Part shown: positions 1,276-23,951 of the stretch, piece by piece
Position numbering within the stretch: position 1 is the first letter of the stretch
Layout of the letters: every line of letters starts with the position of its first letter
DNA from: Paracrocinitomix mangrovi
Lineage (GTDB): Bacteria > Bacteroidota > Bacteroidia > Flavobacteriales_D > Crocinitomicaceae
Reading direction: 5' to 3'
Length of the DNA stretch: 64,000 bases
NCBI RefSeq assembly: GCF_019740355.2
Contig: NZ_CP091819.1
Span: forward strand, 1,240,001 to 1,304,000
Made by a program: the position numbers and the translations under genes
Notes under the pieces: generated by a model
What the model was told of the DNA's origin: nothing
Database searches by the model: none
Seen by the model: only the letters and a program-made list of their open reading frames with translations

Positions 1276-4200
1276 ATGAAATATTCTTTAAAAATGCTTA
1301 CTAAAAGACTGATAAAGACAAAGCTAAGGTCATTTATTGTCACTGCAATTTTGTGTTGTGGAGTTACCTCCTTTGCACAACAGGATACCATTTTTTGGTT
1401 TGCTGCACCTGACATCTCTTCTGGTGCTGGTGACACACCTGTACATTTAAGATTATTGTCTTATGATCAAGCAGCAACAGTTACAATTTCGCAACCTGCA
1501 AATGGAGGTTTCACGCCAATAGTAGTGAATATTCCGGCTAACTCTGTCAGCAATGTTGATTTATCTTCTTTCTTGGCGGATATTGAAAGTCCGGCTGCTG
1601 ATGTAGTTTCCAATACAGGGTTAAAAATTGAATCAACAGAGATCATTAGTGCATATTATGAACTTTCTAATGCAAGCAATAAAGAAATTTTCTCTTTGAA
1701 AGGTAATAAAGGTCTGGGTGACAATTTTTACACCCCTTTTCAAAAAGCCTGGGACAATGCTTCAATTTCGCCTTCTACGTATTCTTCAATTGAAATTGTA
1801 GCAACAGAAAATAATACTACTGTTGTTATTACACCTAAAACTAACATTGTTGGTCATTCGGTTGGTGCAACTTTTAACATTACATTAAATGAGGGAGAAA
1901 CCTACAGTGCCAGAGATGTTAATCTATCTGCTTCAACTTCATTGGCCGGATCAATTGTTTCTTCTGACAAACCAGTTTCTGTGACAGTGTTCTCAGGAGC
2001 ATTGCAATATGACGGTTGTAATTCATCTATGGGAGATCAAATAACTCCTGCTGATTATTTAGGTACAGATTTTATTATCCACAAAGGAACTACAGATGAT
2101 AAAGTATACATACTAGGAACTCAAAATAATACGGCAATTACAATTAGTGATTTGGGAACCACTAATTCACTTGTAAACTGGAGTGAAACGTATGAGTATG
2201 ATCTTAACGATACTTACAACCACATTCATACAACCAAACCTGTCTATGTATGGCACGCTTCAGGATTAGGATGTAATTTAGGTGGGGCCCAAGTTCCAAA
2301 TGTATTTTGTGCCGGTAAATATGATCAATCTTTTACACGTTCAACAGCTGACTCATTAGGTGTATTTCTTTGGATCAGAACTGGATTTGAAGGAGATTTT
2401 CAATTAAATGGAAACAGCACATTAATCCAAGCTAGCGATTTTACAGTAGTTCCAGGAACTAGTGGTGAATTTATGATGGCATTGAAATTTTTCAATACCA
2501 CTCAAGTTCCTGTTGGAAGCTATAATAAAGTAACAAATACAGGAGACATTTTTGGTCTGGGTATTATAAATGGTGAAACAACAGAAGGAGCAGGATATGC
2601 ATATCTTTCTGAATTTAGTTCATACCCTTATGTTGATGCCGGATTAGATGCTACAATTTGCCAAAATGTGCCTTTTAACCTTAATGGAATTGTTGGAGGT
2701 GGAGATGTAACGGGTACATGGTCAGGAACAGGATTTGGATCTTTCTCTAGCCCATTAAACTCTCTTACAAACACTTACAACCCTAGTGTAATTGACACAA
2801 TTATTAGTCCTATAAGTTTGATATTGACTTCTACCGGTCCTTGTCCGGAAATGAAGGATACACTAATTTTAACAGTAACTCCTGCTCCTATAGTAAACGC
2901 AGGAGCTGATCAAGTTGTATGCGCCAATGATCCAAATGTTGACTTAAGCGGAAATGTTACCGGTGGAGCAACAGGTGGAATTTGGTCTTCTATGGGAAGT
3001 GGAACTTTTACACCATCTAATACGGATTTAAATGCAACATACGTTCCTTCTCCGGCTGATACTATTGCTGGTTCAGTTAATATTATTTTGACATCTACGG
3101 GCTCTGGAAGCTGTATAGATGTTACTGACACTATGAACATTACCATCAGCCCTGCACCTGATGCTGATATTGCGCAAGACACTATTTATGCTTGTTCCAA
3201 CAACCCAAATATTACCTTAAGTGGAACTGTTACAGGCGGAACAACTACAGGAAAATGGACGACTAGTGGAAATGGAGTTTTTAGTCCTGATAACTTATCC
3301 TTAAATTGCACTTACACTCCTAGCCCTGCCGATATTGTTAGTGGTCAAATTATGATCTACCTCACATCCACAAATAATGGATTATGCTTCAGTGATAAAG
3401 ACTCAGTAGTAATTGTATTTACGCCTTCACCAGATGTTAGTGCTGGTACTGATTTATTTGCTTGTACAAATGAAAGTGGTGTGGTATTAAATGGTGCCAT
3501 AAGCGGTGCCACTACAACAGGAGTTTGGACGGGAGGAGCAGGAACCTTTATTCCCAACCCTAATACATTAGATGCACAATATATTCCTTCAGCAGCAGAA
3601 GTAACAGCTGGAAGTGTTACACTTACTCTAACATCTACGAACAATGGCAATTGTTTATCGGATAATGATCAGGTAGACATTGATTTTGTTGCACCTCCGT
3701 TTGCCAACTTTAATTTTAACAGTGCATGCCAAAATGATACAGTTTATGTTGAAGATTTTAGCTTAAATGGATTTGGAGTTATTACTTCTTGGATGTATGA
3801 TTTTGGAGATGGAATAACATCTAACAATCCTGATGATTTCCATTTATACAACAGTTCAGGGAATTTTGACATTCAACTTGTAGTACAAAGTGATGCTGGT
3901 TGTATAGACACATTAACTCAATCAGTAACAGTATATGATTTACCGGTAGCAGATTTTACGTATTCTCCAACTTGTGATAATGATCAGGTGATCGTTTATT
4001 TTAATGATGCTTCAACTATTGGTTCAGGTTCAATTACAAATTGGTACTACGATTTTGGAGGTATGGGAAATCAGTCTGTTCAAAACCCAAATCAATTATT
4101 TGTTGGAACCGGAAACTTTACAATTACTCAAATAGTAAGTTCAAATCAGGGATGTTCAGATACAATAACACAAGTATTATCTGTTCCACCAAAACCAAAT

Positions 4201-4731
4201 GCAGGTTTCTTTTATAATACAAGTGGCGGATTAAACGTTGGTGCTGAATTTACTTTTATAGATACTTCTTCTAACGCCGCAACTTACAGTTGGGATTTTG
4301 GAAATGGAGAAACTTCAACGGACCAGAATCCTACAGTAGTTTATTTTGCAAATGGAAATTATGACGTTGTATTAGTTGCAACTGGACCTCTTGGATGTAT
4401 TGATAGTGCATCACAAGTTATCACAATTAATACGGTAACTACTGAAATCACTCAATTAATTCCAAACGCTATTTCACCTAATGGCGATAACATTAATGAT
4501 GTTTGGAAACTAGAATTTATTCAATACACCAATACAGATGCGCAAATTGTAATTGTTAATCGTTGGGGGCAAACAGTATTTGAAAGTGTAGGGTATGCCA
4601 ATCCTTGGGATGGAACTTTCCAAGGTACGGGTGAATTGGTTCCTGAAGGAAACTATTACTATATCATCAAAATAAGTGATGATGAAATTTACGAAGGAGC
4701 ATTACTCGTCTTAATATCAGCAAATAACTAA
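1276..4731 (+). CDS. Giant secreted repeat protein 1, IgGFc-binding-type head, T9SS type B tail
   Basis: A surface protein exported through the outer membrane by the T9SS. Residue numbers count from the ATG at 1276. A signal peptide (basic KRLIKTKLR stretch, then a hydrophobic run ending SFA-QQ) is followed by an IgGFc-binding-protein-type N-terminal domain (about 38-450; FWFAAP, VVITP and SDKPVSVTV stretches). Next come four ~90-residue Ig-like repeats (about 452-808; each with an AGxD..C opening and LTST near the end), three PKD domains (about 809-1060) and a type B gliding-motility C-terminal domain from about 1061 (PNAISPNGDNINDVW, NRWG, WDG). ATG 1294 is an equally good start with an A-rich leader. 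The TTG at 1240 is rejected because it sits inside the promoter. The stop overlaps the next start by one base, implying coupling to the PorP partner. The ligand is unknown; the IgGFc name describes a fold, not proven IgG binding. Confidence 0.9.
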   Translation: MKYSLKMLTKRLIKTKLRSFIVTAILCCGVTSFAQQDTIFWFAAPDISSGAGDTPVHLRLLSYDQAATVTISQPANGGFTPIVVNIPANSVSNVDLSSFLADIESPAADVVSNTGLKIESTEIISAYYELSNASNKEIFSLKGNKGLGDNFYTPFQKAWDNASISPSTYSSIEIVATENNTTVVITPKTNIVGHSVGATFNITLNEGETYSARDVNLSASTSLAGSIVSSDKPVSVTVFSGALQYDGCNSSMGDQITPADYLGTDFIIHKGTTDDKVYILGTQNNTAITISDLGTTNSLVNWSETYEYDLNDTYNHIHTTKPVYVWHASGLGCNLGGAQVPNVFCAGKYDQSFTRSTADSLGVFLWIRTGFEGDFQLNGNSTLIQASDFTVVPGTSGEFMMALKFFNTTQVPVGSYNKVTNTGDIFGLGIINGETTEGAGYAYLSEFSSYPYVDAGLDATICQNVPFNLNGIVGGGDVTGTWSGTGFGSFSSPLNSLTNTYNPSVIDTIISPISLILTSTGPCPEMKDTLILTVTPAPIVNAGADQVVCANDPNVDLSGNVTGGATGGIWSSMGSGTFTPSNTDLNATYVPSPADTIAGSVNIILTSTGSGSCIDVTDTMNITISPAPDADIAQDTIYACSNNPNITLSGTVTGGTTTGKWTTSGNGVFSPDNLSLNCTYTPSPADIVSGQIMIYLTSTNNGLCFSDKDSVVIVFTPSPDVSAGTDLFACTNESGVVLNGAISGATTTGVWTGGAGTFIPNPNTLDAQYIPSAAEVTAGSVTLTLTSTNNGNCLSDNDQVDIDFVAPPFANFNFNSACQNDTVYVEDFSLNGFGVITSWMYDFGDGITSNNPDDFHLYNSSGNFDIQLVVQSDAGCIDTLTQSVTVYDLPVADFTYSPTCDNDQVIVYFNDASTIGSGSITNWYYDFGGMGNQSVQNPNQLFVGTGNFTITQIVSSNQGCSDTITQVLSVPPKPNAGFFYNTSGGLNVGAEFTFIDTSSNAATYSWDFGNGETSTDQNPTVVYFANGNYDVVLVATGPLGCIDSASQVITINTVTTEITQLIPNAISPNGDNINDVWKLEFIQYTNTDAQIVIVNRWGQTVFESVGYANPWDGTFQGTGELVPEGNYYYIIKISDDEIYEGALLVLISANN

Positions 4732-5774
4732 TGAAAAAGTTACTATTCATATTAGCTATCAGTTGTTTTGCTTATATAAGCAAGGCGCAACAACAGTATG
4801 TTTTTACAAATTTCATGATGAACGATTATTACTATAACCCAGCTGTGGCAGGGAGTAAAAAGTTTCATTATGCAAACCTAGGTTTCAGAATGCAATGGGC
4901 TGGATTCAATGAAGCTCCTATGACCATGTACGCCAATTTTTACGGATCAGTTAAAAATGAAATGAAGCATGGATATGGAATTTCAATTGTGAATGACAGA
5001 AGCGGCTTAGTAAATAATACTGCTATCTCATTGAATTACGCCTACCATGTGAAATTAGGTGAAAAATGGAAATTAGGAATGGGGGTAAAACCCGGATTTA
5101 TTCAGTACAACATTAAATTGTATGATGCTTTATTGGCAGATGAAGGTGATAACATATTAGAAGGAAACGTATTATCTACAGGTGCATTTGATCTTTCATC
5201 CGGAATTCATCTTTATTCAGAAAGATTCTTTTTTATGCTTTCAATGAGACACATATTTGGAGATGCCATCACCTTTACCGGATTTAATGATGGATTATCT
5301 AAACACTACACAGGAATAGTTGGATATAACTGGTGGGTAAACAAAAAAAGTAAACAACGACAGTTAGAATTGTTAGATAAGCAAAGAAAAGGTACCCTTG
5401 AAGAAGGAGAAGAAGTAGCCAAAAAGAAGATCAAAGATTTTGAATTAATGCCAATTATCATGGTCAATTATGTAAATCCTATCACACCACAAGGTACAGC
5501 AATGCTTAAAGCTACATTTGATCATAAATATTGGGCGGGATTGTCATACAGAACACAAGATGCATTGGGAATTTCATTAGGTATGGTAATAAAAGAAAGA
5601 TTGAACATTGGATATAGTTTTGATTATTCAATGGGGCAAATTCAAGGTTATAATTATGGATCTCATGAATTGATGCTTTCTTTTCAAACCACAAGTAAAA
5701 AGAAGAGTTTGGAAGAACAAGATGAGGAGCTGAACAACAGCATATTTGACACCCCCGAGTCAGATAAGAAGTAA
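4731..5774 (+). CDS. PorP/SprF family outer-membrane protein, partner of adhesin 1
   Basis: A 347-residue outer-membrane beta-barrel of the PorP/SprF family, members of which are needed for secretion or surface attachment of T9SS type B substrates. It has a signal peptide (MKKLLFILAISCFAYISKAQ) and the family opening QYVFTNFMMNDYYYNPAVAGS with the typical NPAxAG signature. Alternating aromatic/polar strands run to the C-terminus. It differs from the other two family members here: it carries a long charged insertion (about residues 203-240, Lys/Glu rich) and a charged tail ending in SDKK, and lacks their C-terminal CPxL. It starts in the TAATG overlap with adhesin 1. No PorE-like gene follows, unlike the other two modules. 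Confidence 0.88.
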   Translation: MKKLLFILAISCFAYISKAQQQYVFTNFMMNDYYYNPAVAGSKKFHYANLGFRMQWAGFNEAPMTMYANFYGSVKNEMKHGYGISIVNDRSGLVNNTAISLNYAYHVKLGEKWKLGMGVKPGFIQYNIKLYDALLADEGDNILEGNVLSTGAFDLSSGIHLYSERFFFMLSMRHIFGDAITFTGFNDGLSKHYTGIVGYNWWVNKKSKQRQLELLDKQRKGTLEEGEEVAKKKIKDFELMPIIMVNYVNPITPQGTAMLKATFDHKYWAGLSYRTQDALGISLGMVIKERLNIGYSFDYSMGQIQGYNYGSHELMLSFQTTSKKKSLEEQDEELNNSIFDTPESDKK

Positions 5775-5793
5775 ATGATAAAAAATTGAGATT

Positions 5794-8700
5794 ATGAAAT
5801 GGTTTAAAATATTCATATTGACCATAGGGTTGTGGACAACAATTGGCTCTCAAGAAGCTAAAGCGCAAATTGACACAACATTCTGGTTTGCTGCCCCATG
5901 GGTAACACCAGATCATGACCAAAACACGCCAATGGCGTTTCATTTTTCCACATTTGCTAATGCAACTACAATTAGATTGTATCAGCCTGCATTCACATAT
6001 GACACAACATTTACGGTTCCTCCAAATACATTGTTTTCTAAATATGTTTCACATTTAGTTAACACACTGGAAAGTAAGCCAGCAGATATGGTTCTAAATT
6101 GGGGATTTAAAATAGAAAGTGATTATCCAATTATTGCTGTATATGACTTCATTTCCAGTCCAAATAATGGTAGTTCAAATAATCCTGAAACTTATTCCTT
6201 GAAAGGGCAAAATGGGATGGGATATGAATTCGTAACACCTTTTCAAACGTTATGGAATAACAAAATATTGACAAATGATAATAATTCTGATGGTGTAGTT
6301 ACGCAACCTAAACAATTCTTTTCAGTTGTTGCTACGGAGGATAATACTGTCATTTATATTACACCTAAATGCGACGTTGTAGGTCATCCGGCCGACATTA
6401 CTTATTCGGTAACTCTCCCATTGGCCGGACAAGTTTATACTTGCGAAAATGTAGTTTCAAACACAAGTGCTCCAGGAAATTCATTAGCAGGTTCAATTGT
6501 TGTTTCTAACAAACCAGTTTCTGTTACAGTGAATGATGACTCTGTTAACCCTTCGGGAGGTGGTGGATGTTATGATTTAATGGGAGACCAAATTGTTCCC
6601 ACTGATGTTATTGGAAAGGAATATATAGTAAATAAAGGTTTTTTGAATGTTGGGTCTAATGAGTCAATATTTGTTGTTGCTACAGAAAATTTTACCACGG
6701 TAAATATTGATAATGGAATAACCACTACATCTGTAATTTTAAATCAGGGAGACACTTACCAATACAGTATTACGGAACAATTGACTTCTGTCCATGCTGA
6801 CAAGAATGTATACCTGTTACACATGTCTGGATATGGATGTGAGTTAGGTAAAGCATTATTACCTCCATTAAATTGTGCTGGATCAGATCAGGTTAGTTTT
6901 ACTAGAACAAATGGTCAAAGTTTTTTATTAGATATAGTTTGTCCGGCAGGATCAGAAGGCAACTTTACATTAAACGGATCAACAACTTTGGTTCAAGCAT
7001 CTGATTTTAACCCTGTACCAGGAACAGGTGGTGCATGGATGGGGGCTCAAATCTCTTTTAATACTACAGATATTCCTATTAACACTGCTAATTTATTGAC
7101 CAATTCATCTGATTATTTTTCATTAGGAATTATCAATGGAGGTGCAACCACTGGATGTTTATATCACTACATATCACCATTCTTGAGGAGAGTTTATGTA
7201 GACGCAGGAAATGATACTACTCTTTGTAGTGCAGAAACAATTATTGATTTAAATGGATCTGTAACAGGTGGTGTAAGCACAGGTATTTGGAGTGTTTTAG
7301 ATGGATCAGGAACCCTAAATTCTCCAACAAATTTATCTACTACGTATGATCCGGTTCAATCAGATTATGATCAAGGTTCTTTAACTTTTGTTCTACAATC
7401 AACTGGTAACTGTGATCCGAGATACGATACTTTAGTTGTTGACTTTATTGAATCACCAGATGTTTCTGCCGGATTGGACGATACATATTGTAAAAATAAT
7501 GTGGGAGCGGTATCTGTTAGTGGTTCATTGCAGTTTGCTTTAGCATCAACATGGTCTGGCGGTAATGGTGGATCTTTTGGAAACGTAGCTAATTTAAATA
7601 CTACCTATACTCCTTCACCAACCGATTTGGCAAATGATTCAGTAGTACTTTACTTAACTTCTAGCGGAAGTTTCTTCGCTTGCCCGGATGATGAGGATAC
7701 TTTAGTTATTTATTTTTCAGAGCCACCTAGTGTATTTGCTGGTGCAGATCAGGTAATTTGTTCATCTACACCACAAGTGGCCTTGAATGGAACTGTTAGT
7801 GGACCTACCACAACAGGAGAATGGACAACATCAGGTTCAGGAGCTTTTAGTCCTTCAGAATTTGATTTGAGCAACGATTATTTGATTTCTGCAGCAGATA
7901 CTGCCACCGGAACTGTAACACTTGTGCTGACCTCAACAAATAATGGAAATTGCCTGGCAGTTGCAGATAGCTTGACACTGACCATTCTTGACAAACCTAC
8001 AGTTACAATTACTTCTGAAGATTCTTTGTGTGCCAATGTGCCTAACATTGATTTAACCGGAACGGTTACTTCTGGATTTACTACAACCTGGATTGTAAAT
8101 GGTACTGGATCAATTGCAGATCCTAATTCATTGAATACTACCTATGGATTAACTCCTACAGATACCAGTATGGGATCTATTTGGATCTATTTAGAAACAA
8201 CCGGAGGAATTTGTCCAATTGAAACAGATTCTTTAGAAGTTCAATTCGTTGCTCCACCAGTAGTTTTTGCTGGATTAGATCAAAATCACTGTTCAAATGA
8301 AGTAGTAGCGTTGAATGGAACTTTATCCGGAACTGCTTCAGGTGCTAGTTGGTCATCTTTAGGAACAGGAACTTTTAATCCTGGTCCAAACTTGTTAAAC
8401 ACCTTCTATGAGCCTTCGCCCCTTGATATTTCTAATGGAAGTGTAAACCTTATTCTTACATCAACTGCTGAATTTGGTTGTTTACCTGATGATGACACCT
8501 TAACTATCACATATTTAGAAGTACCAGTAGCTGATTTTTCTTCAACTTCTGCATGTACAGGTGAAAACACTTTCTTTACTGACTTATCTACAATTGGTTC
8601 AGGGTCAATTACAACATGGCAATACGACTTTGGAAATAGCAATACATCTATCGCTCAAAATCCAATTCATAATTATTCAGGATCTGGAAACTTTGTAGTT

Positions 8701-9534
8701 ACATTGATAGCAGGTGCTTCTAACGGATGCTTCGACACAATTCAACAAAATATTTGGATTAACCCTGTACCAGTAGCTAATTTCACCAATAACTACGCCT
8801 GCGAAAATGATGCTACTGCTTTTATTGATGCCACTTTCTTATCTTCAGGTAGTATCCAAAGTTGGTCTTGGGACTTCGCAAACGGTGCAGGTACAAGTAA
8901 CATTCAAAATCCTTCCTATACCTTCGGAAATGAAGGAACTTATTCAGTCTCATTAACAGTGGTTTCAGATTCTGGATGTGTTGGAACTGTTACTAATAGT
9001 GTGGATGTATTAGGAGGACCTACGGCAGCATTTTCAGTTACACCTGTACCAGCATTAGCTTTAGAACAAGTTTTCTTTACTGATGAATCAAATGACCCTT
9101 CAATTGTTGCTTGGTATTGGGATTACGGAGATGGAATTGGAGGCTTTAATCAAAATGAAATTCACACTTACCAAAATGGTGGATATTATGATGTAGTGCT
9201 TACAGTAACTGATACAGCTGGTTGTCAAGATACTGCTGTACAAAATATTCAAGTCATTTTAGAGCCAGCACTTCCAACTGCGTTTACACCAAACAATGAT
9301 GGCGAAAATGACTTCTTTTTAATCAGAGGAGGACCTTTCCAAGCTGTTGATTTCAAAATATTCTCTAATTGGGGTGCTTTGGTATATTCAACCACTGACG
9401 TAAACCACCAAGGTTGGGACGGGCAATATAATGGAACTGATGCTCCTGTAGGTGTTTATTCTTGGACATACACTGTAATTATGCCAGGAGGTAAAGAATT
9501 TATTAAAGAAGGTGATGTCACCTTAATGAGGTAG
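5794..9534 (+). CDS. Giant secreted repeat protein 2, IgGFc-binding-type head, T9SS type B tail
   Basis: A 1246-residue secreted surface protein. The signal peptide ends near residue 25 (EAKA-QIDTTFWFAAP). The IgGFc-binding-type domain (about 28-465) clearly resembles that of adhesin 1. Five Ig-like repeats follow (starting near 468, 555, 646, 736 and 823), then three PKD domains (near 912, 994 and 1077; DFGNS, WDFANG and WDYGDG), then a type B C-terminal domain from about 1159 (PTAFTPNNDGENDFFLI, NWG, GWDG, GDVTLMR). The tail resembles adhesin 3, not adhesin 1. It begins 19 bases after PorP 1 and ends 2 bases before PorP 2, so it is probably cotranscribed with both. Binding partner unknown. 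Confidence 0.9.
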   Translation: MKWFKIFILTIGLWTTIGSQEAKAQIDTTFWFAAPWVTPDHDQNTPMAFHFSTFANATTIRLYQPAFTYDTTFTVPPNTLFSKYVSHLVNTLESKPADMVLNWGFKIESDYPIIAVYDFISSPNNGSSNNPETYSLKGQNGMGYEFVTPFQTLWNNKILTNDNNSDGVVTQPKQFFSVVATEDNTVIYITPKCDVVGHPADITYSVTLPLAGQVYTCENVVSNTSAPGNSLAGSIVVSNKPVSVTVNDDSVNPSGGGGCYDLMGDQIVPTDVIGKEYIVNKGFLNVGSNESIFVVATENFTTVNIDNGITTTSVILNQGDTYQYSITEQLTSVHADKNVYLLHMSGYGCELGKALLPPLNCAGSDQVSFTRTNGQSFLLDIVCPAGSEGNFTLNGSTTLVQASDFNPVPGTGGAWMGAQISFNTTDIPINTANLLTNSSDYFSLGIINGGATTGCLYHYISPFLRRVYVDAGNDTTLCSAETIIDLNGSVTGGVSTGIWSVLDGSGTLNSPTNLSTTYDPVQSDYDQGSLTFVLQSTGNCDPRYDTLVVDFIESPDVSAGLDDTYCKNNVGAVSVSGSLQFALASTWSGGNGGSFGNVANLNTTYTPSPTDLANDSVVLYLTSSGSFFACPDDEDTLVIYFSEPPSVFAGADQVICSSTPQVALNGTVSGPTTTGEWTTSGSGAFSPSEFDLSNDYLISAADTATGTVTLVLTSTNNGNCLAVADSLTLTILDKPTVTITSEDSLCANVPNIDLTGTVTSGFTTTWIVNGTGSIADPNSLNTTYGLTPTDTSMGSIWIYLETTGGICPIETDSLEVQFVAPPVVFAGLDQNHCSNEVVALNGTLSGTASGASWSSLGTGTFNPGPNLLNTFYEPSPLDISNGSVNLILTSTAEFGCLPDDDTLTITYLEVPVADFSSTSACTGENTFFTDLSTIGSGSITTWQYDFGNSNTSIAQNPIHNYSGSGNFVVTLIAGASNGCFDTIQQNIWINPVPVANFTNNYACENDATAFIDATFLSSGSIQSWSWDFANGAGTSNIQNPSYTFGNEGTYSVSLTVVSDSGCVGTVTNSVDVLGGPTAAFSVTPVPALALEQVFFTDESNDPSIVAWYWDYGDGIGGFNQNEIHTYQNGGYYDVVLTVTDTAGCQDTAVQNIQVILEPALPTAFTPNNDGENDFFLIRGGPFQAVDFKIFSNWGALVYSTTDVNHQGWDGQYNGTDAPVGVYSWTYTVIMPGGKEFIKEGDVTLMR

Positions 9535-9536
9535 GC

Positions 9537-10532
9537 ATGAAAATGAAGAAAATTCTCATATTGATTTGCAGCGTTTTTGCGTTGAATGCAGGACGAGCCC
9601 AAGACTGGCACTTGTCTATGTATGATGCTGCTCCTATGTATCTAAATCCGGCAATGACCGGAGTAGTTGAAGGAGAATGGCGAATTCATGCTCATTATAG
9701 AAATCAGTGGAACTCTGTAAACTTTAAACCTTTCAATACAGGTTTAATAAGCTTTGATGCACCGGTTGGTAATTGGGGATTTGGAGGTCAAATAATTAAC
9801 TACAGGGCCGGAATTGGAAATTATAATGCTTTACAAGGTTTAGCATCTGTTGCGTATACAATCCCTTTGAATAAAAAGAGATCTCACGTAATTACAATGG
9901 GAGTTCAAGGAGGAGTTACTCAAAAGAAAGTTGAATATCAATTATTGACATTTAACAATCAATACACTACACAAAACGGAGGAGGATTTGATTCAAATAT
10001 GCCTTCAAATGAATCTTTTGGAGGACAATCATTCATAACGCCTGATTTAAATGCCGGAATTTTATATTACTATGCAAGACAACAGAGTAGATTAAATCCA
10101 TTTGTCGGATTCTCTGCTTTTAATTTACTTGAACCTCAAGAATCCTGGTTTGGATCAAGTAATAAACTACCAATGAGATTTTACATTCACGCGGGTACCA
10201 GAATTAATATTACTGAAACTATTTATTTGATTCCAAAAGCTCTTTGGATGCAACAATCTACCTTCAACGAATTAACCCTGGCATGTGACGCAGGATTTTA
10301 TTTAAAAGGAAGTGAAGTGTATGTTTTAGGAGGTTTAACTTACAGAAATAAAGATGCTTTTATCGCCACTATAGGAGCTAAAAAGGCAAATTACATTGCA
10401 AAGTTTAGTTATGATACTAATTTATCTCAGCTAACTCCAGCATCTAATGGTAGAGGTGGTATTGAAATCTCTTTCACTTATATGCATCAAAAGAAAGACA
10501 AAAAGAAAGTTAAAGTTTGCCCACAATTATAA
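9537..10532 (+). CDS. PorP/SprF family outer-membrane protein, partner of adhesin 2
   Basis: A 331-residue PorP/SprF-family barrel with a signal peptide (ending GRA-QDWHLS) and the family signature LNPAMTGV. The predicted role is to help export or hold the type B adhesin encoded just upstream. It is close in sequence to the third family member at 20845 (shared QDxHLSxxDAA opening, RNQW/RTQW, TGLxSFDA, FSYDxN, ASNGRGG). It ends VKVCPQL, a C-terminal Cys-Pro motif also found there. It starts 2 bases after the adhesin stop and 8 bases separate it from the PorE-like gene. MKMKK gives two possible starts (9537 or 9543). Confidence 0.9.
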   Translation: MKMKKILILICSVFALNAGRAQDWHLSMYDAAPMYLNPAMTGVVEGEWRIHAHYRNQWNSVNFKPFNTGLISFDAPVGNWGFGGQIINYRAGIGNYNALQGLASVAYTIPLNKKRSHVITMGVQGGVTQKKVEYQLLTFNNQYTTQNGGGFDSNMPSNESFGGQSFITPDLNAGILYYYARQQSRLNPFVGFSAFNLLEPQESWFGSSNKLPMRFYIHAGTRINITETIYLIPKALWMQQSTFNELTLACDAGFYLKGSEVYVLGGLTYRNKDAFIATIGAKKANYIAKFSYDTNLSQLTPASNGRGGIEISFTYMHQKKDKKKVKVCPQL

Positions 10533-10540
10533 ATAGTTTG

Positions 10541-16000: not shown

Positions 16001-16459
16001 TACATCATTATTAGAATCTGTAGTAATATCTTTTCCTCCATCAAAATTTGATGAACCGGTATAAACCTGAGCCCATAACTGAGCACCAGTCGTACCGTCA
16101 TACTTAACAACTGCTATGTCCCAATCATTTCCTCCAATGAATCTAGATCCGGTAACCACAATATCACCATTACTATCCATGGCCATGGCTTCAGCTTCAT
16201 CCAATCCACTTCCTCCATAAGACATCACCCATTGTTCAACTCCGTTTGCATCATATTTTACAGTGACCCAATCGTAATTAGAACCATTAAAAGAAGTACC
16301 TGTTACATAGGTATTACCTGCTGCATCCAACTCCAGATCCACTGCTTGATCTATAAAATTTGCGGGGTTCTCATAACGTGCTTCCCATTGCACGTTAATC
16401 TGAGCGAAAGATAGGTTCAAGAAAAATGTACACAGTGTAAGTAGTGTTATTCTTGACAT
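13061..16459 (-). CDS. Secreted SBBP-propeller / Ig-like repeat protein, T9SS type A tail
   Basis: An 1132-residue T9SS cargo. The signal peptide ends SFA-QIN. The first ~430 residues are SBBP-type propeller repeats of about 50 residues (NTYVTGTS, VTVKYDANG, DIVVTGSR, DIAVVKYD and so on), each ending in an aromatic Lys-Tyr strand. About six Ig-like repeats follow (about 450-1000; CxGDSVQLxATGxxTYVW pattern). The last ~70 residues are a type A Por secretion tail (MYPNPTNGLLNIEL, VTTLNGKVL, GVYMIQIV, RRIVKQ). It lies between two type B modules but on the opposite strand and has no PorP neighbour, as expected since type A cargo does not need one. Substrate or ligand unknown. Confidence 0.9.
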   Translation of the reverse strand: MSRITLLTLCTFFLNLSFAQINVQWEARYENPANFIDQAVDLELDAAGNTYVTGTSFNGSNYDWVTVKYDANGVEQWVMSYGGSGLDEAEAMAMDSNGDIVVTGSRFIGGNDWDIAVVKYDGTTGAQLWAQVYTGSSNFDGGKDITTDSNNDVILTGTYSFSSTDIDWIVIKYNSAGVFQWDDTNGTPDNDEGKVIIADASNNYYVAGHSEFSSGSTYFDFLLMKYNSAGTQLGSVTQDAGFNGLDTPHAIDLDASGNIFVGGQGFNALDEEDYVLMKFNNSLAHQWTRTYAGNYTGLDRINALAVDQTSGNIFVTGRSKSNESSEDFYTIAYNTAGVVLWDDRYTSAGLNFDEATDIQIAASGFVYITGYTFNSGSNNDYTTVKYSSTGTLEWDTKFNGPSGLSDQAAKLRLDPAENIFVTGKSHGGVTNLDYSTIKYCQLTTVASADAAICNGQSVALSATGGINITWAVLSGDMGSLSCTNCSSTTASPNTTSVYTVSSESASGCIDYDTVTVTVNAIPSPTIYNDTPLDFCVGGSVILYTDSYAGYSWNTSATDSFIVANTAGTYTVTITDVNGCQNSTNAVVTTYGLPSVDAGTAVSVCPGSSTTLSASGATTYVWDTDITLSQLNISNPVATPTADPTWYYVTGTDGNGCQNNDSVQVSWFTLPVVNAGLDDQVCVGDSVQLGATGALTYVWNASTSLSSTTVANPYAFPTSITTYTVTGTDGNGCTDQDNVTISTLSLPNVNAGTTDSHCLGDSTHIFASGALTWQWVNDNDLSNLNTSNPWASNTIDKWFYVYGTDVNGCTNIDSVEITVDPLPNVTAGPDISICTGDSVQLNATGADTYVWDSHPTFLSPTNVSNPWVKPIVQTTYVFTGTNTTTGCENTTDITVSLNALPNIDAGLDTSMCIGDSLQLMATGGVTYIWSNASTLSSNIIADPWSFTTTDVTYYLDGYDANGCFGEDSIHVIVNPLPSAPAILEVGQWLISSYNSGNQWYLNGSPVAGATNDSLNWVDQAQNGSYTLLYTDANGCQSFSPSNNIIIIDDIGFEENNAIEVKMYPNPTNGLLNIELGEDIDMLFVTTLNGKVLMLEQNILSGIKQIDLSELPTGVYMIQIVKDDRVLNRRIVKQ

Positions 16460-16550: not shown

Positions 16551-16589
16551 ATAGATGAACTTGTTTCACACATAGATGAACTCGTTTCA
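16551..16589. repeat. 21-bp direct repeat, operator candidate upstream of module 3
   Basis: ATAGATGAACTTGTTTCA (16551) recurs as ATAGATGAACTCGTTTCA (16572), one mismatch in 18 and exactly 21 bases apart. A degenerate third half (TAGATTAA from 16594) follows in the same phase. The copies lie just upstream of the -33-like TTTG at 16613. Two-helical-turn spacing places them on one face of the DNA, as in response-regulator or LytTR-type activator sites. Confidence 0.5.
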
Positions 16590-16612
16590 ACCGTAGATTA
16601 AATTTTGAAAAG

Positions 16613-16644
16613 TTTGCTTTAGTACTTTAATATTAATAATTTCG
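16613..16644 (+). promoter_or_regulatory. Promoter candidate for adhesin module 3
   Basis: TTTG at 16613-16616, a 20-base spacer, then TAATTTCG at 16637-16644, one mismatch from TAnnTTTG. It lies about 30 bases before the ATG at 16674. The imperfect -7 and the adjacent direct repeats suggest activator dependence. Confidence 0.5.
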
Positions 16645-16673
16645 CTGTTTATACCTACTTTATAAAGAGGTTA

Positions 16674-19600
16674 ATGATGAGAAAATTACTACTTCTACTT
16701 ATTCTATTCGTGTCGACTTATTCATTTGCAACTCACGTAGTTGGTGGTGAAATCATATACCAACATGTTGGTGGGTCGTCATATATTTTAACGCTAAAAC
16801 TTTACAGAGATTGTGATCCTGCTTCGGTAGATTTCCCAAATTCAACTACAGTTATTGTTGATGAAGGAGACGGAACATCTTATGGAAGCTTCAACTTACC
16901 TATGTTGATTAGGGATACATTAAATCCTGCTTTGGATACGTGTGCCTTTGATCCTGGTATTTGTGTTGAGGAGGCTATTTATCAGTCTGTAGTTTCACTT
17001 CCTCCTGGTTCAGGTGGATATCACTTACACTACACCTTGTGCTGTAGAAACGGAAGTATTGACAACATCAATAACCCCTTAAATGCGAGGGAAACTTTTT
17101 ACGCATATGTACCGGACAACAATATTTACTTGACTAACTCAAGTCCTGTAATTACTAATTTCCCTCCTGTTTACGTATGCAATCAACAAGATTTAAGTTT
17201 GGATTTTGGTGCTACAGATGCTGATGGAGATTCATTAGTGTACTCATTTTATACTCCTTATGATGGTGTAAACGGTGGTGGGATTTCATATAATGCAGCA
17301 ACGCCTCCCAACAATTTTCAAGCAAGTCCTGTAACTTGGTTGCCTAGCTTTAGTGCTACAAGTCCTTTAGATCCTGCCGGTTCCCCTGGATTAACTATAG
17401 ATCCTCAAACTGGTTTTATTACAGGATCTCCGGTGATGCAAGGGCAGTTTGTCGTTGGAGTTCGAGTTGATGAATATAGAGATGGAACCTTAATTGGTAG
17501 AATAACCAGGGATTTCCAATTTAATGTTGTGAATTGTCCTCCACCTCAAGATGCAGGTATAGGTCCAGTTGACGCCTGTAGTGGTTTAAGTATCACTTTT
17601 GACAATCAATCTGGAGCCGGAGCAAATGGATTTTGGTGGGATTTTGGAACAGGAAACCCTGCAGATACATCTATAGTGTATGAACCTACATTTGCATATC
17701 CAAGTATCGGAACATATCCAATTACTCTAATTGCTCAAAAAGGGACACTTTGCGCAGATACGGCATATTATAATATGATTGTTTCAGGATTGGTTCCTGA
17801 TTTTAATGCTCCTGACACTGTATGTATTGGAGAAGCGGCTCAATTTACTGACTTGTCAGTACCTGCTGCCAACGGAAATGTAAATGCATGGGAATGGGAT
17901 TTTGGCGACGGTTCAACCTCGAATTTACAAAACCCTACACATGCATACGGAGCATCCGGAGATTACACAGTACAACTAATAGCATATACTGATGTAGGAT
18001 GTGTAGACACCTTTACACAAGATATTCATGTAAAAATTCCTCCTCAGGCAGGAATCACTCCAATGCCTGGTTGTAACGGACTTTCGGTGACATTTGGAAA
18101 CAATTCTGACCCTGGAGCTACAGGTTTGTGGTGGGAATTTGGGACAAGTTTCCCAGCGGATACATCAATTCTATCTAATCCAACATTTAATTATACTGGG
18201 TACGGAGTATACACTGTTACCTTAGTAGCACAAAAAGGAACGGCATGTGCGGATACTGCAACATATGACATTACCTTATCTGATGTGACTTCTGATTTTA
18301 CAGCTCCTGACACAACTTGTTCCAACGTTTTAGTATCATTTACGGATGCATCTTTCACATCAGGTGGAGGAGCAATTGATACATGGCAATGGGATTTTGA
18401 TGGTGCAGGATCTTCAACTCAGCAAAATCCAAATATCGGATTTGCCACAGCTGGAACTTATAATGTGCAACTTATTTCTTCTTCAGACCTTGGATGTATA
18501 GATTCTATTACCATTCCAATTGTAGTTATAGATGCACCAATTGCTGATATAGGGCCTACAGATTTTTGTGCTGGTTTGACTATTGATTTTGCTAATAATT
18601 CAGGACCGGGATCTAATGGATTCCACTGGGACTTTGGAACAGGTAACCCAGCCGATACAAGTGACTTGCAAAACCCAACTTTTACATATCCAGGATTCGG
18701 AAGTTATACAGTTACATTAACCGCTCAATCTGGAACGGTTTGTCAGACAATAGCTACCTTACCTATTATTGTATCAGAAATTAATGCAGATTTTGTTGCT
18801 GCTGATACAGCTTGTCAAGGTTCAATTATTGCATTTAATGATGCTTCAACAACACAAGCAGGTACTACAATTACAGATTGGGATTGGAATTTTGGAGATT
18901 TGAATGTTTCATCTCAACAAAACCCTCAACACTCTTATAACACAAGTGGAACTATTCCGGTTCAATTAATTGTTGAATCAAATATTGGATGTATTGACAC
19001 TATTACTTATGATGTAGAGATAATGGCGCCTCCAGTAGCTAATGCAGGTTTAGATACTGCTGTTTGTGTTTCAAATCCTTCATACCAATTGAATGGAGCT
19101 GTTGTTAATGTGACAGGAGGAGTTTGGTCAGGAAATGGAGGTGTTTTCACGCCATCTGCAGCAAACCTAACCGCTACTTATTTCCCATCATTAGGTGAAT
19201 TAAATGCAGGTTCAACAGACTTAGTATTAACAACTGCCGCCACTCCTTATTGTGCTGCTGATACTGATACAATTACAATATTCTACCTAAGTACTCCAAC
19301 AATTGATGCTGGTTTAACCATTGAAGTTTGTGACGACACAACGTACATTCAGATGGACGGAACTGTTCAATTTGCTACCAATATTGTATGGACTACAACA
19401 GGAGCAGGAAGTTTTAATGACGATAGCCAATTAGATGCGATATATACTTTCTCACCTGGAGAAATTGTTGCTGGAGATTCAATTCTATTTATGGTAGAGA
19501 CATTTAATTTCTCTGGATGTCCTGATGATCAAGATTCAGTATGGCTATTCTTCAATTCACCTCCTACAATGAATGTAGTATTTGATGATACTGTATGTGC

Positions 19601-20837
19601 TGGATTCCCTATTCCTTTGAATTCAAATTCAACAACAGGAAATGGTTTATGGACTACTTCTGGAGACGGTATATTTAATCCTGATAGTTCAGACGCGACA
19701 TTATACGATCACGGAGCAAATGATGAAGCAAACGGAAACGTAACAATTTATTTCGAATCACTAGATAATGGAGGTTGTCCAACCTTGTATGATACACTAT
19801 TAATTACAATTGTGCCTTCTCCAGATCCTGGATTCTCATTTGTAGAAACTTGTTTTGGAACACAAACCGTGTTTACAGATTCATCTTCTTCAATTGACCC
19901 TATTACAAATTGGGACTGGACATTTGAACCTGGACAAACTTCTACTTCACAGAATCCTACTTACAACTTCTTAAGTCCAGGAGTACATCCGGTACAGTTG
20001 ATCGTTACTTCAGCTAATGGATGCCAGGACACATTAATAGTTGACGTTACATCTCATTACATTCCAAATCCGAATTTCGTGGTTCCTTTCCCTTGTATAG
20101 AGCCGTTTACTCAATTTATTGACTCTTCAACTGTCGTTGGTGATTCAATTGTTTCATGGTCTTGGGATTTTGGAGATGGTTCAGGAAATAGCAACCAACA
20201 AAATCCAACTTATGTATATGGTGGAACTTCAGTTTATTCAATAAACTTGTCTGTAACATCTGGATTTGGTTGTACAAATGACACAACTATTGCTACTCAA
20301 ATATTCCAAGGACCAAATGGAGGATTTAATTTTAACCCAACAAGTGGAAATGTTGGTCAAGACATATATTTCTCTGATGCTTCTACTGCAGATGTAAATC
20401 CTATAGTAAACTGGTTGTATAATTTTGGAGATAGTACAGGAATTTTTGGTGGACCTGATGCTGTACACGTTTATGATCCAGAAGGAGAATACACTGTAAC
20501 TTACATTGTGATTGATGCCGTTGGATGTACAGATACTGTAACAGCTATTATACCGGTTTATCACGGACCACTAGTTCCTTCTGCTTTTACACCTAATGGA
20601 GACGGGAACAATGATTTCTTAATGATTTTAGGAGGAAACTTCTCATCAGTTGATTTTAAAATCTACAATAACTGGGGTGAAGTAATTTATGAAACTATTG
20701 ATCCTAATGATCAAGGTTGGGACGGAACTTACAAAGGCGTAGATCAGCCGCTTGGAGTTTATGTCTATACAGCAGTGGTGACGACCTTTGATGGTGAAGA
20801 ACACGTATTAAAAGGAGATGTCTCACTCATAAGATAA
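16674..20837 (+). CDS. Giant secreted PKD-repeat protein 3, T9SS type B tail
   Basis: A 1387-residue surface protein. The signal peptide ends YSFA-THVVGG. The N-terminal ~270 residues (THVVGGEIIYQHVGG, LYRDCD, CCRNGSIDN, DADGDSLVYSF) are a head common in Bacteroidota PKD proteins and unrelated to the heads of adhesins 1 and 2. From about 291, three copies of a 166-residue unit (starting near 291, 457 and 623) each contain two alternating PKD forms. Three Ig-like repeats follow (near 788, 875 and 965), then three PKD domains (near 1053, 1132 and 1216; WSWDFGDGSG), then a type B tail from about 1300 (PSAFTPNGDGNNDFLMI, NNWG, GWDG, GDVSLIR). PorP 3 begins 7 bases later. ATG 16674 and 16677 are both possible starts. 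Confidence 0.9.
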   Translation: MMRKLLLLLILFVSTYSFATHVVGGEIIYQHVGGSSYILTLKLYRDCDPASVDFPNSTTVIVDEGDGTSYGSFNLPMLIRDTLNPALDTCAFDPGICVEEAIYQSVVSLPPGSGGYHLHYTLCCRNGSIDNINNPLNARETFYAYVPDNNIYLTNSSPVITNFPPVYVCNQQDLSLDFGATDADGDSLVYSFYTPYDGVNGGGISYNAATPPNNFQASPVTWLPSFSATSPLDPAGSPGLTIDPQTGFITGSPVMQGQFVVGVRVDEYRDGTLIGRITRDFQFNVVNCPPPQDAGIGPVDACSGLSITFDNQSGAGANGFWWDFGTGNPADTSIVYEPTFAYPSIGTYPITLIAQKGTLCADTAYYNMIVSGLVPDFNAPDTVCIGEAAQFTDLSVPAANGNVNAWEWDFGDGSTSNLQNPTHAYGASGDYTVQLIAYTDVGCVDTFTQDIHVKIPPQAGITPMPGCNGLSVTFGNNSDPGATGLWWEFGTSFPADTSILSNPTFNYTGYGVYTVTLVAQKGTACADTATYDITLSDVTSDFTAPDTTCSNVLVSFTDASFTSGGGAIDTWQWDFDGAGSSTQQNPNIGFATAGTYNVQLISSSDLGCIDSITIPIVVIDAPIADIGPTDFCAGLTIDFANNSGPGSNGFHWDFGTGNPADTSDLQNPTFTYPGFGSYTVTLTAQSGTVCQTIATLPIIVSEINADFVAADTACQGSIIAFNDASTTQAGTTITDWDWNFGDLNVSSQQNPQHSYNTSGTIPVQLIVESNIGCIDTITYDVEIMAPPVANAGLDTAVCVSNPSYQLNGAVVNVTGGVWSGNGGVFTPSAANLTATYFPSLGELNAGSTDLVLTTAATPYCAADTDTITIFYLSTPTIDAGLTIEVCDDTTYIQMDGTVQFATNIVWTTTGAGSFNDDSQLDAIYTFSPGEIVAGDSILFMVETFNFSGCPDDQDSVWLFFNSPPTMNVVFDDTVCAGFPIPLNSNSTTGNGLWTTSGDGIFNPDSSDATLYDHGANDEANGNVTIYFESLDNGGCPTLYDTLLITIVPSPDPGFSFVETCFGTQTVFTDSSSSIDPITNWDWTFEPGQTSTSQNPTYNFLSPGVHPVQLIVTSANGCQDTLIVDVTSHYIPNPNFVVPFPCIEPFTQFIDSSTVVGDSIVSWSWDFGDGSGNSNQQNPTYVYGGTSVYSINLSVTSGFGCTNDTTIATQIFQGPNGGFNFNPTSGNVGQDIYFSDASTADVNPIVNWLYNFGDSTGIFGGPDAVHVYDPEGEYTVTYIVIDAVGCTDTVTAIIPVYHGPLVPSAFTPNGDGNNDFLMILGGNFSSVDFKIYNNWGEVIYETIDPNDQGWDGTYKGVDQPLGVYVYTAVVTTFDGEEHVLKGDVSLIR

Positions 20838-20844
20838 AGCTACA

Positions 20845-21831
20845 ATGAAAAAATTCTTAGTATTACTTTGTTTTAGCGTTTCCGGTGCTATTGCCAATGC
20901 TCAGGACTTCCATTTATCACAGTGGGATGCTGCAGCTATTAATGCAAACCCGGGAATGACTGGAGTGTTCAAGGGAGATTACAGAATCCATGGACATTTT
21001 AGAACGCAATGGTCAGCAGTGGCAACAAGACCATTCACAACAGGATTGGTTTCTTTTGATGCCAATAAAGGAAAATATGGTTGGGGTGTTCAAGCAGCTA
21101 ATTTTAATGCAGGAGCCGGTTCATATAATGTGATTAGCGTATTACCGTCTTTTGCATGGAAGTTTGGATTAGATAAGAAAAGACAACATTTTATTACACT
21201 TGGTGCATCAGTGGGAATCTTTCAAAAATCAATTAAAATTTCTCAATTGACATTTGCTGATGAATATTCACCTTACAACGGTGGTCAATTTTCTAATTCA
21301 ACAAATGAGTCGTTTGGAGATGCAAACAAATTGAACTTAGATGCCAATGTTGGTTTTATGTATTACTATGCAAATCCAAGTGCAAGAGTTAATCCATTTG
21401 GTGGTTTTTCAGTATTTCATGTAAACAGACCATCTGAATCATTTATTCAGGATAACGCCAATAAATTACCATTTAGATATCAAGGTATTTTAGCTGCACG
21501 TGTAGTAATTACAGATAAAGTTTCAATAATCCCTAAAGTTCTTTGGCAATATCAAGAACAAGCAATGGAATTAAATTATTCTGGATTAGCACAGTTTTAT
21601 CTTGAAGCCTATGACTTATTTTTATTAGCAGGTGGAACTTACAGAAGTAAAGATGCCGCAATTGCAGAAGTAGGTCTAAAATATGGTAATTGGATCGGAA
21701 GATTTAGTTATGACATTAACACTTCTACCTTGAACAATGCTTCAAACGGAAGAGGTGGTAGTGAACTTTCAGTAACATACACATTCAGCAAACCTGATCC
21801 AAATCCGGTTCCAACTTGTCCTAAATTATGA
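20845..21831 (+). CDS. PorP/SprF family outer-membrane protein, partner of adhesin 3
   Basis: A 328-residue PorP/SprF barrel with a signal peptide (ending ANA-QDFHLS) and the signature ANPGMTGV. It is the close paralog of the 9537 protein along its whole length and shares the C-terminal Cys-Pro ending (VPTCPKL). Predicted to work with the type B tail of adhesin 3 and, at its periplasmic side, with the PorE-like protein whose gene overlaps its stop by four bases (ATGA). Confidence 0.9.
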   Translation: MKKFLVLLCFSVSGAIANAQDFHLSQWDAAAINANPGMTGVFKGDYRIHGHFRTQWSAVATRPFTTGLVSFDANKGKYGWGVQAANFNAGAGSYNVISVLPSFAWKFGLDKKRQHFITLGASVGIFQKSIKISQLTFADEYSPYNGGQFSNSTNESFGDANKLNLDANVGFMYYYANPSARVNPFGGFSVFHVNRPSESFIQDNANKLPFRYQGILAARVVITDKVSIIPKVLWQYQEQAMELNYSGLAQFYLEAYDLFLLAGGTYRSKDAAIAEVGLKYGNWIGRFSYDINTSTLNNASNGRGGSELSVTYTFSKPDPNPVPTCPKL

Positions 21832-23951
21832 TGAAAAGAATTTTTGCATATTGCTTTCTATATTTCGTTGTACAGGGCGTTGCTTTTGGACAAACGAACA
21901 AAGAACTTTTAAAATTAGGAGATGCTGCCATGGTTAATGGTCAGTATACTAATGCAGTTCATTATTACTCATATATACTTTTTAAAATTCAATCAGGTGA
22001 AGATGCCATGTACTATCCTTTTGGAGTAGAAACAGCATATAAAGAACCTGTAAAAGATGAAAACGGAGCCATTGCACCACCATCTGATCCTAATGAGAAA
22101 GAAATTAGAGTAATACACAAATTGGCTGATGCTTATAGATTAGCTGATGACTACGCTAATGCTGAAAAATGGTATGTATCTGCTTTGGAACATCCAAATG
22201 AGGAGTTTCCTTATGCCAAGTACTTTTATGGAATTTCATTGATGTACAATGAGAAATTTGAAGAAGCTAAAAAAGCATTTGAAGAATTTCAAACTGAAAA
22301 CGGTGATCCTGATAACAAATACTACAAATTAGCTACTGATAAAATGGCTAGCTGTCAATTTGCATTGAATCCTATCAATACAAAAGATAAAGTATCAGTA
22401 TCTAAGATGGATGATAATATTAATAAAGGTTCAACTAGTTTTGGTCTTCAATTTGTTTCAGATGATTTCTTGATTTTCTCATCAGCTAGAACAGATGAAA
22501 CACCTGATTCACTTTTAACTGAAGAAAGGCATCCGCTTGAAATGTATATGTTGGATATCTATACTGTAAAGAAAAATGAGGACGGAACTTATCAAAAAGC
22601 TGAAAAATTCCCTTATGAATTAAACTCTGCCGAATATCATGAAGGTAGTGTAGTTATTTCAAATGACGGGAATGTTTTATTCTTTACGAGAATGGATCCT
22701 AACAATATCAATGAAACTAAAATATATGTTTCTAGAAAGTATAACAATCAATGGATGCCACCTCGTCCTATGGATAACAACGTAAACATGAGTGGATTTA
22801 GATCAAAGAATCCACATTTATCAGGTGACGGTACTACCTTATTCTTTTCTTCAAATAGACCTGGAGGTGAAGGAGGAATGGATATTTGGCAAACTACTAT
22901 TGATGCTAATGGTAATACTACAGAGCCTCAAAACCTTGGTACATCAATTAATACCGGAGAAAATGAGATCACTCCTTTCTATCATGACAACACAAAAACA
23001 CTTTACTTCTCATCTGGAGGTAGAATTGGATTTGGAGGAATGGATATTTTCATGAGTACATGGAATGACGAAATTGAATGGTATAATCAAGCTGTAAATG
23101 CAGGAGCTCCGATCAATTCTTCAAGAGATGACAGCTATTTCGTAATTGATGAAAAATTACAAAACGGTTTTGTGACGTCTGATAGAGAAGCTTGTCAAGA
23201 ATGTGATTCTATTTACAACTTGCAAGTTCATTGTAACAGAATTTATGAAATCTCTAGACCTGAAATGAAGTTCTACATCTCAGGTTATGTTTATGACATG
23301 GCAACTAATGAGGTGATTCCGGGAGCAAAAGTTGAATTTAAGGATGTAAGCTATAAGTGGGATCACTTTGAGTTAATTGCTGATGAAAATGGTTATTACG
23401 AAAAAGAGTTGATTCCTAATCTTGAATTGTTCATGAGAGCTTCACAAAAAGATTATTTTGCCGATAAAGCCATTGTTATTACTAAAGGAAAAACAGAATC
23501 AAAGAACTTTACACAAGATTTTTACTTAGAAAAGATTCCTAAGGGAGAGATTACAATTGAAGGTATTGAGTACGACTTTGACTCTGCTAATTTAAGACCT
23601 GAATCAAAAAAGATTTTGGATAACCTTATTGAATTCCTTGAATTGAATAGCAACCTTAAAATTGAGATTAGATCACATACAGATGAAAGAGGTAATGATA
23701 ATTACAACTTAAATTTATCTGAAAGAAGAGCACAGTCTGTTGTTGACTACTTGGTAGATAATGGAATTCCAAGAGAAAGATTGGTACCAAAAGGATACGG
23801 TGAAACAATGCCTGCTGAAATTCCATCAGAAAGTGGAGAAATAGTAACATTGACACCAGATTATATCCGTGCTATTCCTAACGAAGAAAAAAGAGAAGAA
23901 TATCACCAAAGAAACAGAAGAACTGCATTCTTTGTATTGGAGCAGAACTAA
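21828..23951 (+). CDS. PorE-like protein: TPR, propeller, regulatory-like and OmpA domains
   Basis: A 707-residue paralog of the 10541 protein, with a signal peptide (ending AFG-Q). TPR-like helices and a PD40-type propeller (LIFSSARTDE, LFFSSNRPGGEGGMDIW, LYFSSGGRIGFGGMDIF) precede a Cys link (CQEC) and a regulatory-like domain (SGYVYDMATNEVIPGA). It closes with an OmpA peptidoglycan-binding domain (EYDFDSANLRPESKK, SHTDERGNDNYN, LSERRAQSV). The C-terminal halves of the two paralogs are mostly identical, while their TPR and propeller parts have diverged. It is likely the periplasmic anchor of module 3 and is followed by a terminator hairpin that ends the unit. Confidence 0.88.
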   Translation: MMKRIFAYCFLYFVVQGVAFGQTNKELLKLGDAAMVNGQYTNAVHYYSYILFKIQSGEDAMYYPFGVETAYKEPVKDENGAIAPPSDPNEKEIRVIHKLADAYRLADDYANAEKWYVSALEHPNEEFPYAKYFYGISLMYNEKFEEAKKAFEEFQTENGDPDNKYYKLATDKMASCQFALNPINTKDKVSVSKMDDNINKGSTSFGLQFVSDDFLIFSSARTDETPDSLLTEERHPLEMYMLDIYTVKKNEDGTYQKAEKFPYELNSAEYHEGSVVISNDGNVLFFTRMDPNNINETKIYVSRKYNNQWMPPRPMDNNVNMSGFRSKNPHLSGDGTTLFFSSNRPGGEGGMDIWQTTIDANGNTTEPQNLGTSINTGENEITPFYHDNTKTLYFSSGGRIGFGGMDIFMSTWNDEIEWYNQAVNAGAPINSSRDDSYFVIDEKLQNGFVTSDREACQECDSIYNLQVHCNRIYEISRPEMKFYISGYVYDMATNEVIPGAKVEFKDVSYKWDHFELIADENGYYEKELIPNLELFMRASQKDYFADKAIVITKGKTESKNFTQDFYLEKIPKGEITIEGIEYDFDSANLRPESKKILDNLIEFLELNSNLKIEIRSHTDERGNDNYNLNLSERRAQSVVDYLVDNGIPRERLVPKGYGETMPAEIPSESGEIVTLTPDYIRAIPNEEKREEYHQRNRRTAFFVLEQN

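Follow-up and report, generated by a model that had tools for sequence, protein, structure and literature searches.

Two conserved, probable type IX secretion surface-display blocks in Paracrocinitomix mangrovi: adhesin tails inherited with their PorP shuttles and heads probably exchanged in deep time

Three large adhesins encoded close together, each followed directly by the gene of a PorP/SprF shuttle, raise the question of which parts of such proteins are inherited as a unit if their N-terminal heads suggest one grouping and their C-terminal export tails another. The locus occupies positions 1240-23951 of a window of 64,000 nt (contig positions 1240001-1304000 of the single 4.37 Mb contig NZ_CP091819.1 of Paracrocinitomix mangrovi; positions given below are those of this window unless stated otherwise). 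It contains the genes of three large adhesins, three PorP/SprF proteins, two PorE-like proteins and one divergently oriented type A substrate of the type IX secretion system (T9SS). With a probability of about 0.8, we interpret it as two conserved T9SS surface-display blocks in which the tail unit was passed on jointly with its PorP and, in units that have one, a PorE, and in which heads were swapped anciently and are now fixed. All three adhesins are built alike: an N-terminus that by eye resembles a signal peptide is followed by the head, then by Ig/PKD repeats forming the stalk, and finally by a type B tail.

By their heads, adhesins 1 and 2 belong together. Adhesin 1 (1276-4731, + strand; its open reading frame opens with a TTG at 1240, the ATG at 1276 being the likely start) and adhesin 2 (5794-9534, +) carry IgGFc-type heads at about 1360-2619 and 5854-7173, respectively, which are 40% identical. 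Both proteins score above the cut-off of the family IgGFc_binding (PF17517; 97.5 bits, E = 1e-27, and 109 bits, E = 3e-31); this is merely the annotation name of the family, and no immunoglobulin binding is claimed for either adhesin. Adhesin 3 (16674-20837, +) does not reach this cut-off, and its THVVGGEI head (about 16719-17543), which precedes PKD-type repeats, matched no Pfam family above cut-off. The original prediction, made from the letters of the sequence, had likewise placed heads 1 and 2 in one family and head 3 in an unrelated one.

The tails group differently. All three adhesins end in a type B tail of the CHU_C/TIGR04131 family (4453-4731, 9265-9534 and 20568-20837, with 55.3, 43.0 and 46.2 TIGR04131 bits at a cut-off of 35), and tails 2 and 3 are 55.1% identical, compared to 25.0% for tails 1 and 2 and 28.6% for tails 1 and 3 (genome background: median 33, 95th percentile 47.5). 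The genes of PorP1 (4731-5774, +; PF11751, E = 4e-60), PorP2 (9537-10532, +; E = 7e-40) and PorP3 (20845-21831, +), each directly 3′ of its type B substrate gene, encode proteins scoring above the cut-offs of the family models (PF11751, TIGR03519) and show the same pattern, with 46.5% identity for PorP2 and PorP3, 22.0% for PorP1 and PorP2 and 21.8% for PorP1 and PorP3 (background: median 22, 95th percentile 30.8). A second alignment method gave 31% for tails 1 and 2 and 25.5% for PorP1 and PorP2, in comparison to backgrounds between the two tail/PorP classes described below of 32.6±4.1 and 26.8±2.5, respectively. In the whole genome, 30 PorP matches and 74 CHU_C matches were found, which form 22 adjacent tail-PorP pairs. 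Among these pairs, unit 2 is closest to unit 3 and vice versa, by tail as well as by PorP, and tail and PorP distances are correlated (Mantel r = 0.66-0.72, p = 1e-4 for r = 0.66). That tails 2 and 3 are alike with tail 1 standing apart, and that the PorP proteins follow the tails, had both been proposed and were borne out by these measurements.

The same agreement is found across the order. In four other genomes, three of them from other families, tail and PorP distances were correlated as well (Mantel r = 0.56-0.69, p ≤ 0.001 each). The PorP tree falls into two deep classes (support 99/96), with PorP1 in class I and PorP2 and PorP3 as sisters in class II (99/97). Forcing PorP1 and PorP2 together cost 146 log units and was rejected by the approximately unbiased (AU) test (p = 1.9e-57), and the same constraint on tails 1 and 2 was also rejected (AU p = 0.00038). 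When class models built on the P. mangrovi genome were applied to the 48 pairs of the other four genomes, tail and PorP were assigned to the same class in 48/48 cases, with one tail being a near tie (Fisher p = 9e-13, uncorrected for relatedness). Type B tails and PorP shuttles of this order thus form two ancient, co-segregating classes.

A decoupling of heads and tails is visible within adhesin 2 itself. Sequence windows were scored in seven genomes encoding the full set of adhesins and in 25 genomes with the first block (block A, adhesins 1 and 2). Those in the last ~190 residues are closer to adhesin 3 in nearly all genomes, and those farther than ~300 residues from the C-terminus are closer to adhesin 1 in most of them. 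As the stretch ~190-300 residues before the C-terminus is ambiguous, the breakpoint is given as a zone (about 8629-8962, + strand) inside the PKD repeats, adhesin-1-like upstream and adhesin-3-like downstream. This switch inside one protein refutes the simple form of an alternative without any head swapping, according to which whole units were duplicated, tail 1 and PorP1 evolved faster, and head 3 diverged past recognition. That alternative can draw on the stalk repeats common to all three adhesins and on a head tree that does not resolve heads 1 and 2 and allows a split congruent with the tail classes (AU p = 0.32, 0.56). However, no fast tails were seen: among orthologues, tail 1 is better conserved than head 1 (62.8% compared to 57.6%), tails thus evolving more slowly than heads. 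With heads 1 and 2 at 40% identity, descent of whole genes therefore predicts tails 1 and 2 to be well over 40% identical, whereas the observed 31-37% is near the background between the classes. Moreover, PorP1 and tail 1 group in their respective trees with other class I pairs that bear unrelated heads, and if the ancestor shared by both classes had carried an IgGFc head, even more replacements of heads would be needed elsewhere. The orthologue rates together with the breakpoint rule out descent of whole genes with a fast-evolving tail, and we consider the alternative as a whole improbable.

Head exchange does not appear to be confined to this locus. IgGFc heads were found on at least four kinds of tails, including class I tails (adhesin 1 and six further loci), class II tails (adhesin 2 and eight further loci) and tails without an adjacent PorP (at 16123, 2998821 and 3456209 in the P. 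mangrovi genome and at four loci elsewhere). The THVVGGEI head of adhesin 3 is also present on four tails of the same genome that lack an adjacent PorP. A second, independent case is provided by the tandem IgGFc pairs of family f9 (three loci), whose heads are sisters (96/88), whose tails fall into different clades (a single clade is rejected, AU p = 0.0023) and whose stalks are unrelated. Judged from these comparisons, the adhesins of the P. mangrovi locus are likely to be old mosaics, in which heads and upper stalks changed tails over deep time.

Several observations weigh against this interpretation. The tail tree is based on 89 columns only and the root of its classes is weak (75/51), and an exclusive clade of tails 2 and 3 is neither supported nor rejected (AU p = 0.24). 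In the head tree, the pairings of head 1 with head 2, of head 2 with the long clade and of head 1 with the distI clade are all permitted (AU p = 0.53, 0.56 and 0.32), so that more than one number and direction of head swaps would be compatible with it. Finally, the two PorE-like proteins score 365.7 and 349.7 bits with NF052230, below the curated PorE cut-off of 600 bits, for which reason they are referred to as PorE-like only. Among the separate trees of heads, tails and PorP proteins, the check suggested with the original prediction, that of the heads gave no single order of clades.

If heads were exchanged in the past, it might be asked whether they still are. Block A consists of adhesin 1, PorP1, adhesin 2, PorP2 and PorE2, and block B of adhesin 3, PorP3 and PorE3 with the divergent type A substrate gene alongside. 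PorP2 was searched against 199 genomes of the order and 40 regions were retrieved; both blocks were unchanged in these regions, with each head accompanied by the tail and PorP of the same number in 64/64 proteins. In 75 named loci, ranging from Crocinitomicaceae to metagenome-assembled genomes (MAGs) labelled Sphingobacteriaceae, the same block A was found wherever the contig was long enough, without any real exception; these loci include a few block B or unassigned units, and as many genomes are shared with the set of 64 proteins, the two counts are not additive. In four of the 75, tail 2 scores slightly closer to tail 3; since these are sister tails and PorP2 follows where the shuttle is on the contig, they were not counted as exceptions. 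The arrangement has thus been fixed in dozens of species. Ongoing shuffling of heads among the three adhesins within the genus or family, as a source of surface variation, would be conceivable given the repeated PKD stalks, which could recombine, and given that the two blocks have exchanged their order between conserved flanks in the genus. Both surveys contradict it and make it very improbable, and live reassortment at this locus is ruled out by the fixed associations of head, tail and PorP in dozens of genomes. Of the proposal that heads are swapped as modules, the part concerning deep time therefore stands, supported by the AU tests, the breakpoint and the several tail kinds, but current reassortment does not.

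The survey also yielded observations on the loci themselves. Of the named relatives, Crocinitomicaceae MAGs, Fluviicola, Taishania and Brumimicrobium are the nearest. With an S9 peptidase upstream and an FKBP-type isomerase downstream as common flanks (52-24987; loci L065-L068 and L070-L071), block A precedes block B in three genomes of the genus including P. mangrovi, and block B precedes block A in genome G115. Block B also comes first in three others (G183, G010 and G028). One genome (G157) has a second copy of block A, in which PorP2 lacks the cysteine of its C-tail (KIIPRL) and the PorE, of 547 aa, is both short and divergent (37%). At five loci (in G028, G002 and others), adhesin 1, 2 or 3 is broken into two frames, which may reflect frameshifts, assembly errors or decay. 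Two records, CP034120.1 (titled Glaciecola amylolytica) and CAMDNE010000005.1 (titled Chitinophaga pinensis), contain a block A typical of Crocinitomicaceae, and their titles look wrong.

The extent of the inherited unit was estimated from the breakpoint and from the decay of the agreement between adhesin and PorP along the adhesin, which falls from r = 0.83 at the C-terminal domain (CTD) to 0.44-0.50 in the stretch 90-225 residues before the C-terminus and to about 0.3 farther upstream. The unit thus comprises roughly the last 200-300 residues, i.e., the CTD and two stalk domains at the end of the PKD repeats, together with PorP and, where present, PorE. This length suggestively fits the requirement, reported in a review, of more than 200 C-terminal residues for the export of type B fusions (PMC10202324), although recombination between PKD repeats could put breakpoints at such a position with no functional cause behind it. 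In three orthologues of adhesin 2, with 2030-2566 aa, the tail and PorP2 are the same; the length of the stalk varies and the tail unit is kept.

Whether such co-inheritance reflects recognition of the tail by its shuttle is a separate issue. Among orthologues, PorP2 agrees with PorE2 (r = 0.90) and head 2 (r = 0.76) as well as or better than with tail 2 (r = 0.74), and the tail of unit 1 agrees with the PorP of unit 2 at r = 0.78. Congruence of trees is therefore no proof of recognition, and the argument was dropped after these controls with PorE and heads. The agreement of tail and PorP might accordingly reflect nothing but adjacency and inheritance as one block, and the smooth decay of PorP agreement along the adhesin is what linkage would produce. 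That the classes matched in 48/48 pairs, paralogues bearing many different heads, fits a compatibility requirement easily, but linkage could give it too. What speaks against linkage as the whole explanation is published work on Flavobacterium johnsoniae, where type B tails were secreted only with their cognate shuttle or with the shuttle of a closely similar tail; in assays with CTDs fused to superfolder green fluorescent protein (sfGFP), cross-use worked at 68% tail identity and failed at 43% and 26% (PMC12618676). In Porphyromonas gingivalis, PorP binds the type B substrate (PMC9143113). Linkage alone deserves to be taken seriously, but we regard it as the less likely explanation. By analogy with these species, the part of the original prediction stating that PorP recognizes its cognate tail is right, yet it is not new, and the congruence observed here would not suffice to prove it. 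On the F. johnsoniae scale, tails 2 and 3, at 55%, lie between the working and the failing pairs.

A PorE-like gene follows PorP2 (PorE2, 10517-12637, +; OmpA-type domain PF00691, E = 6e-22) and PorP3 (PorE3, 21828-23951, +), and PorP1 has none of its own. Both proteins contain TPR, PD40, CarboxypepD-reg and OmpA-type peptidoglycan-binding domains (Pfam) and, being 48% identical, appear as sisters. The C-termini of the shuttles differ in kind: PorP1 has a long, conserved, acidic and lysine-rich C-tail without cysteine, whereas PorP2 ends in VCPQL (KICPRL in most orthologues) and PorP3 in TCPKL, each with a single Cys-Pro. In the four other genomes, a C-terminus PR[YF][LF] or C-P-[RK]-L was present in 15/22 shuttles with an adjacent PorE and in 5/45 others; the pattern had been drawn from the P. 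mangrovi genome after inspection and was tightened once after the first count. This is a raw association, as the control for relatedness by independent pairs (~2.5 for, 0.1 against) had too little power. This motif (10510-10532 and 21810-21831) is a possible lead as a periplasmic docking peptide for PorE. The Cys-Xaa-Cys C-tail of the gliding subtype of SprF is present in none of the three PorP proteins.

About 50 CHU_C matches of the genome have no adjacent PorP, and many of them end, as a family, in GHVTVLK or alike. These tails recall a case in F. johnsoniae, in which three orphan tails have one common orphan shuttle. Those PorP genes that do not lie next to a type B tail encode, in each of the five genomes examined, a conserved C-terminus with two cysteines (...C(R/K)xK...ISCPSF), examples being found at contig positions 1486235-1487227 and 3927623-3928606 of P. 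mangrovi and at five loci of the other genomes. These PorP proteins are candidate general shuttles for tails that have no PorP gene next to them.

The PorE-like genes, the type A substrate gene and the common PKD/Ig stalk holding the switch from adhesin-1-like to adhesin-3-like sequence had not been part of the original prediction. The type A substrate (13061-16459, − strand; SBBP and Ig_7 repeats and a Por_Secre_tail, by Pfam and orthologues) is divergent from adhesin 3 in 12/12 block B loci, among which it occurs in long (~1130-1155 aa) and short (~830-840 aa) forms. Sequence searches for solved structures of PorP2 and head 1 yielded no hit.

If export, shuttle specificity and the PorP-PorE complex, as published in other species, apply here as well, the T9SS would export each adhesin via its type B signal, and the shuttle encoded just downstream would collect it from the translocon and remain bound as its surface anchor. 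Shuttles 2 and 3 would then probably be fastened to the peptidoglycan by PorE2 and PorE3 acting as static anchors, as has been proposed for Fjoh_3952-3951-3950, and PorP1 might share PorE2, stay free or behave in another way. Recombination within the repeated PKD/Ig stalk probably swapped heads and upper stalks, bringing IgGFc heads onto units of both classes (class I in adhesin 1, class II in adhesin 2), whereas in adhesin 3 the sister unit, also of class II, carries an unrelated head; the blocks would have been fixed thereafter. A more general version of this, which we put forward tentatively and at somewhat less than even odds, is that the two classes (tail, last stalk domains and shuttle) never mix, and that heads have repeatedly been re-plugged between tails of class I, tails of class II and tails lacking a shuttle. 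In this picture, the choice of ligand would lie with the head, and the site and manner of attachment with the tail-PorP-PorE unit, perhaps recognized through a short peptide at the C-terminus of the shuttle (PR[YF][LF] or CPRL in partners of PorE, CxC in the gliding track).

It has been published that a type B tail requires its own shuttle and determines the fate of the cargo, and that the five conserved motifs leave this specificity unexplained. In the natural record described here, PorP and roughly the last 200-300 residues of the adhesin stand out as what moves as one unit, and no pair of mixed class was found among the 48 tested. Adhesins 1 and 2 constitute a conserved natural pair with related heads and shuttles of different class, which suggests that one kind of head can be displayed by different export and anchoring routes. 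Such proteins might be used as natural chimaeras to map specificity and to find out if anchoring is determined by the shuttle alone. In the open-access literature, nothing relevant on IgGFc heads of type B proteins was found; as far as found there, what is new comprises the co-segregation of two classes, the breakpoint within adhesin 2, the independent case in f9 and the long-standing conservation of the operon with two adhesins.

Among known systems, the closest are Fjoh_3952-3951-3950 and five F. johnsoniae operons, which have the same order of substrate, shuttle and PorE, require the cognate shuttle for secretion and were proposed to anchor their substrates statically at the surface through PorE (PMC12618676). 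In contrast to these, block A places two substrate-shuttle units with heads of one family before a single PorE, with one of the units belonging to the other tail/shuttle class. The P. gingivalis complex of PorE, PorP and PG1035, in which the type B substrate is bound to PorP and PorP to PorE (PMC9143113), represents a system with one substrate and one PorP per genome, compared to 30 PorP and about 74 tail matches here. In SprB and SprF of F. johnsoniae, a type B adhesin likewise has a PorP/SprF shuttle of its own, but the Cys-Xaa-Cys C-tail of SprF is bonded to GldK (PMC12635249), and none of PorP1-3 carries such a tail. Domain shuffling in bacterial fibrillar adhesins is similarly reported to recombine binding modules among adhesins with repeat stalks (PMC10952558); what distinguishes the P. 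mangrovi locus from that account is a C-terminal export module which is co-inherited with the gene of a separate outer-membrane protein.

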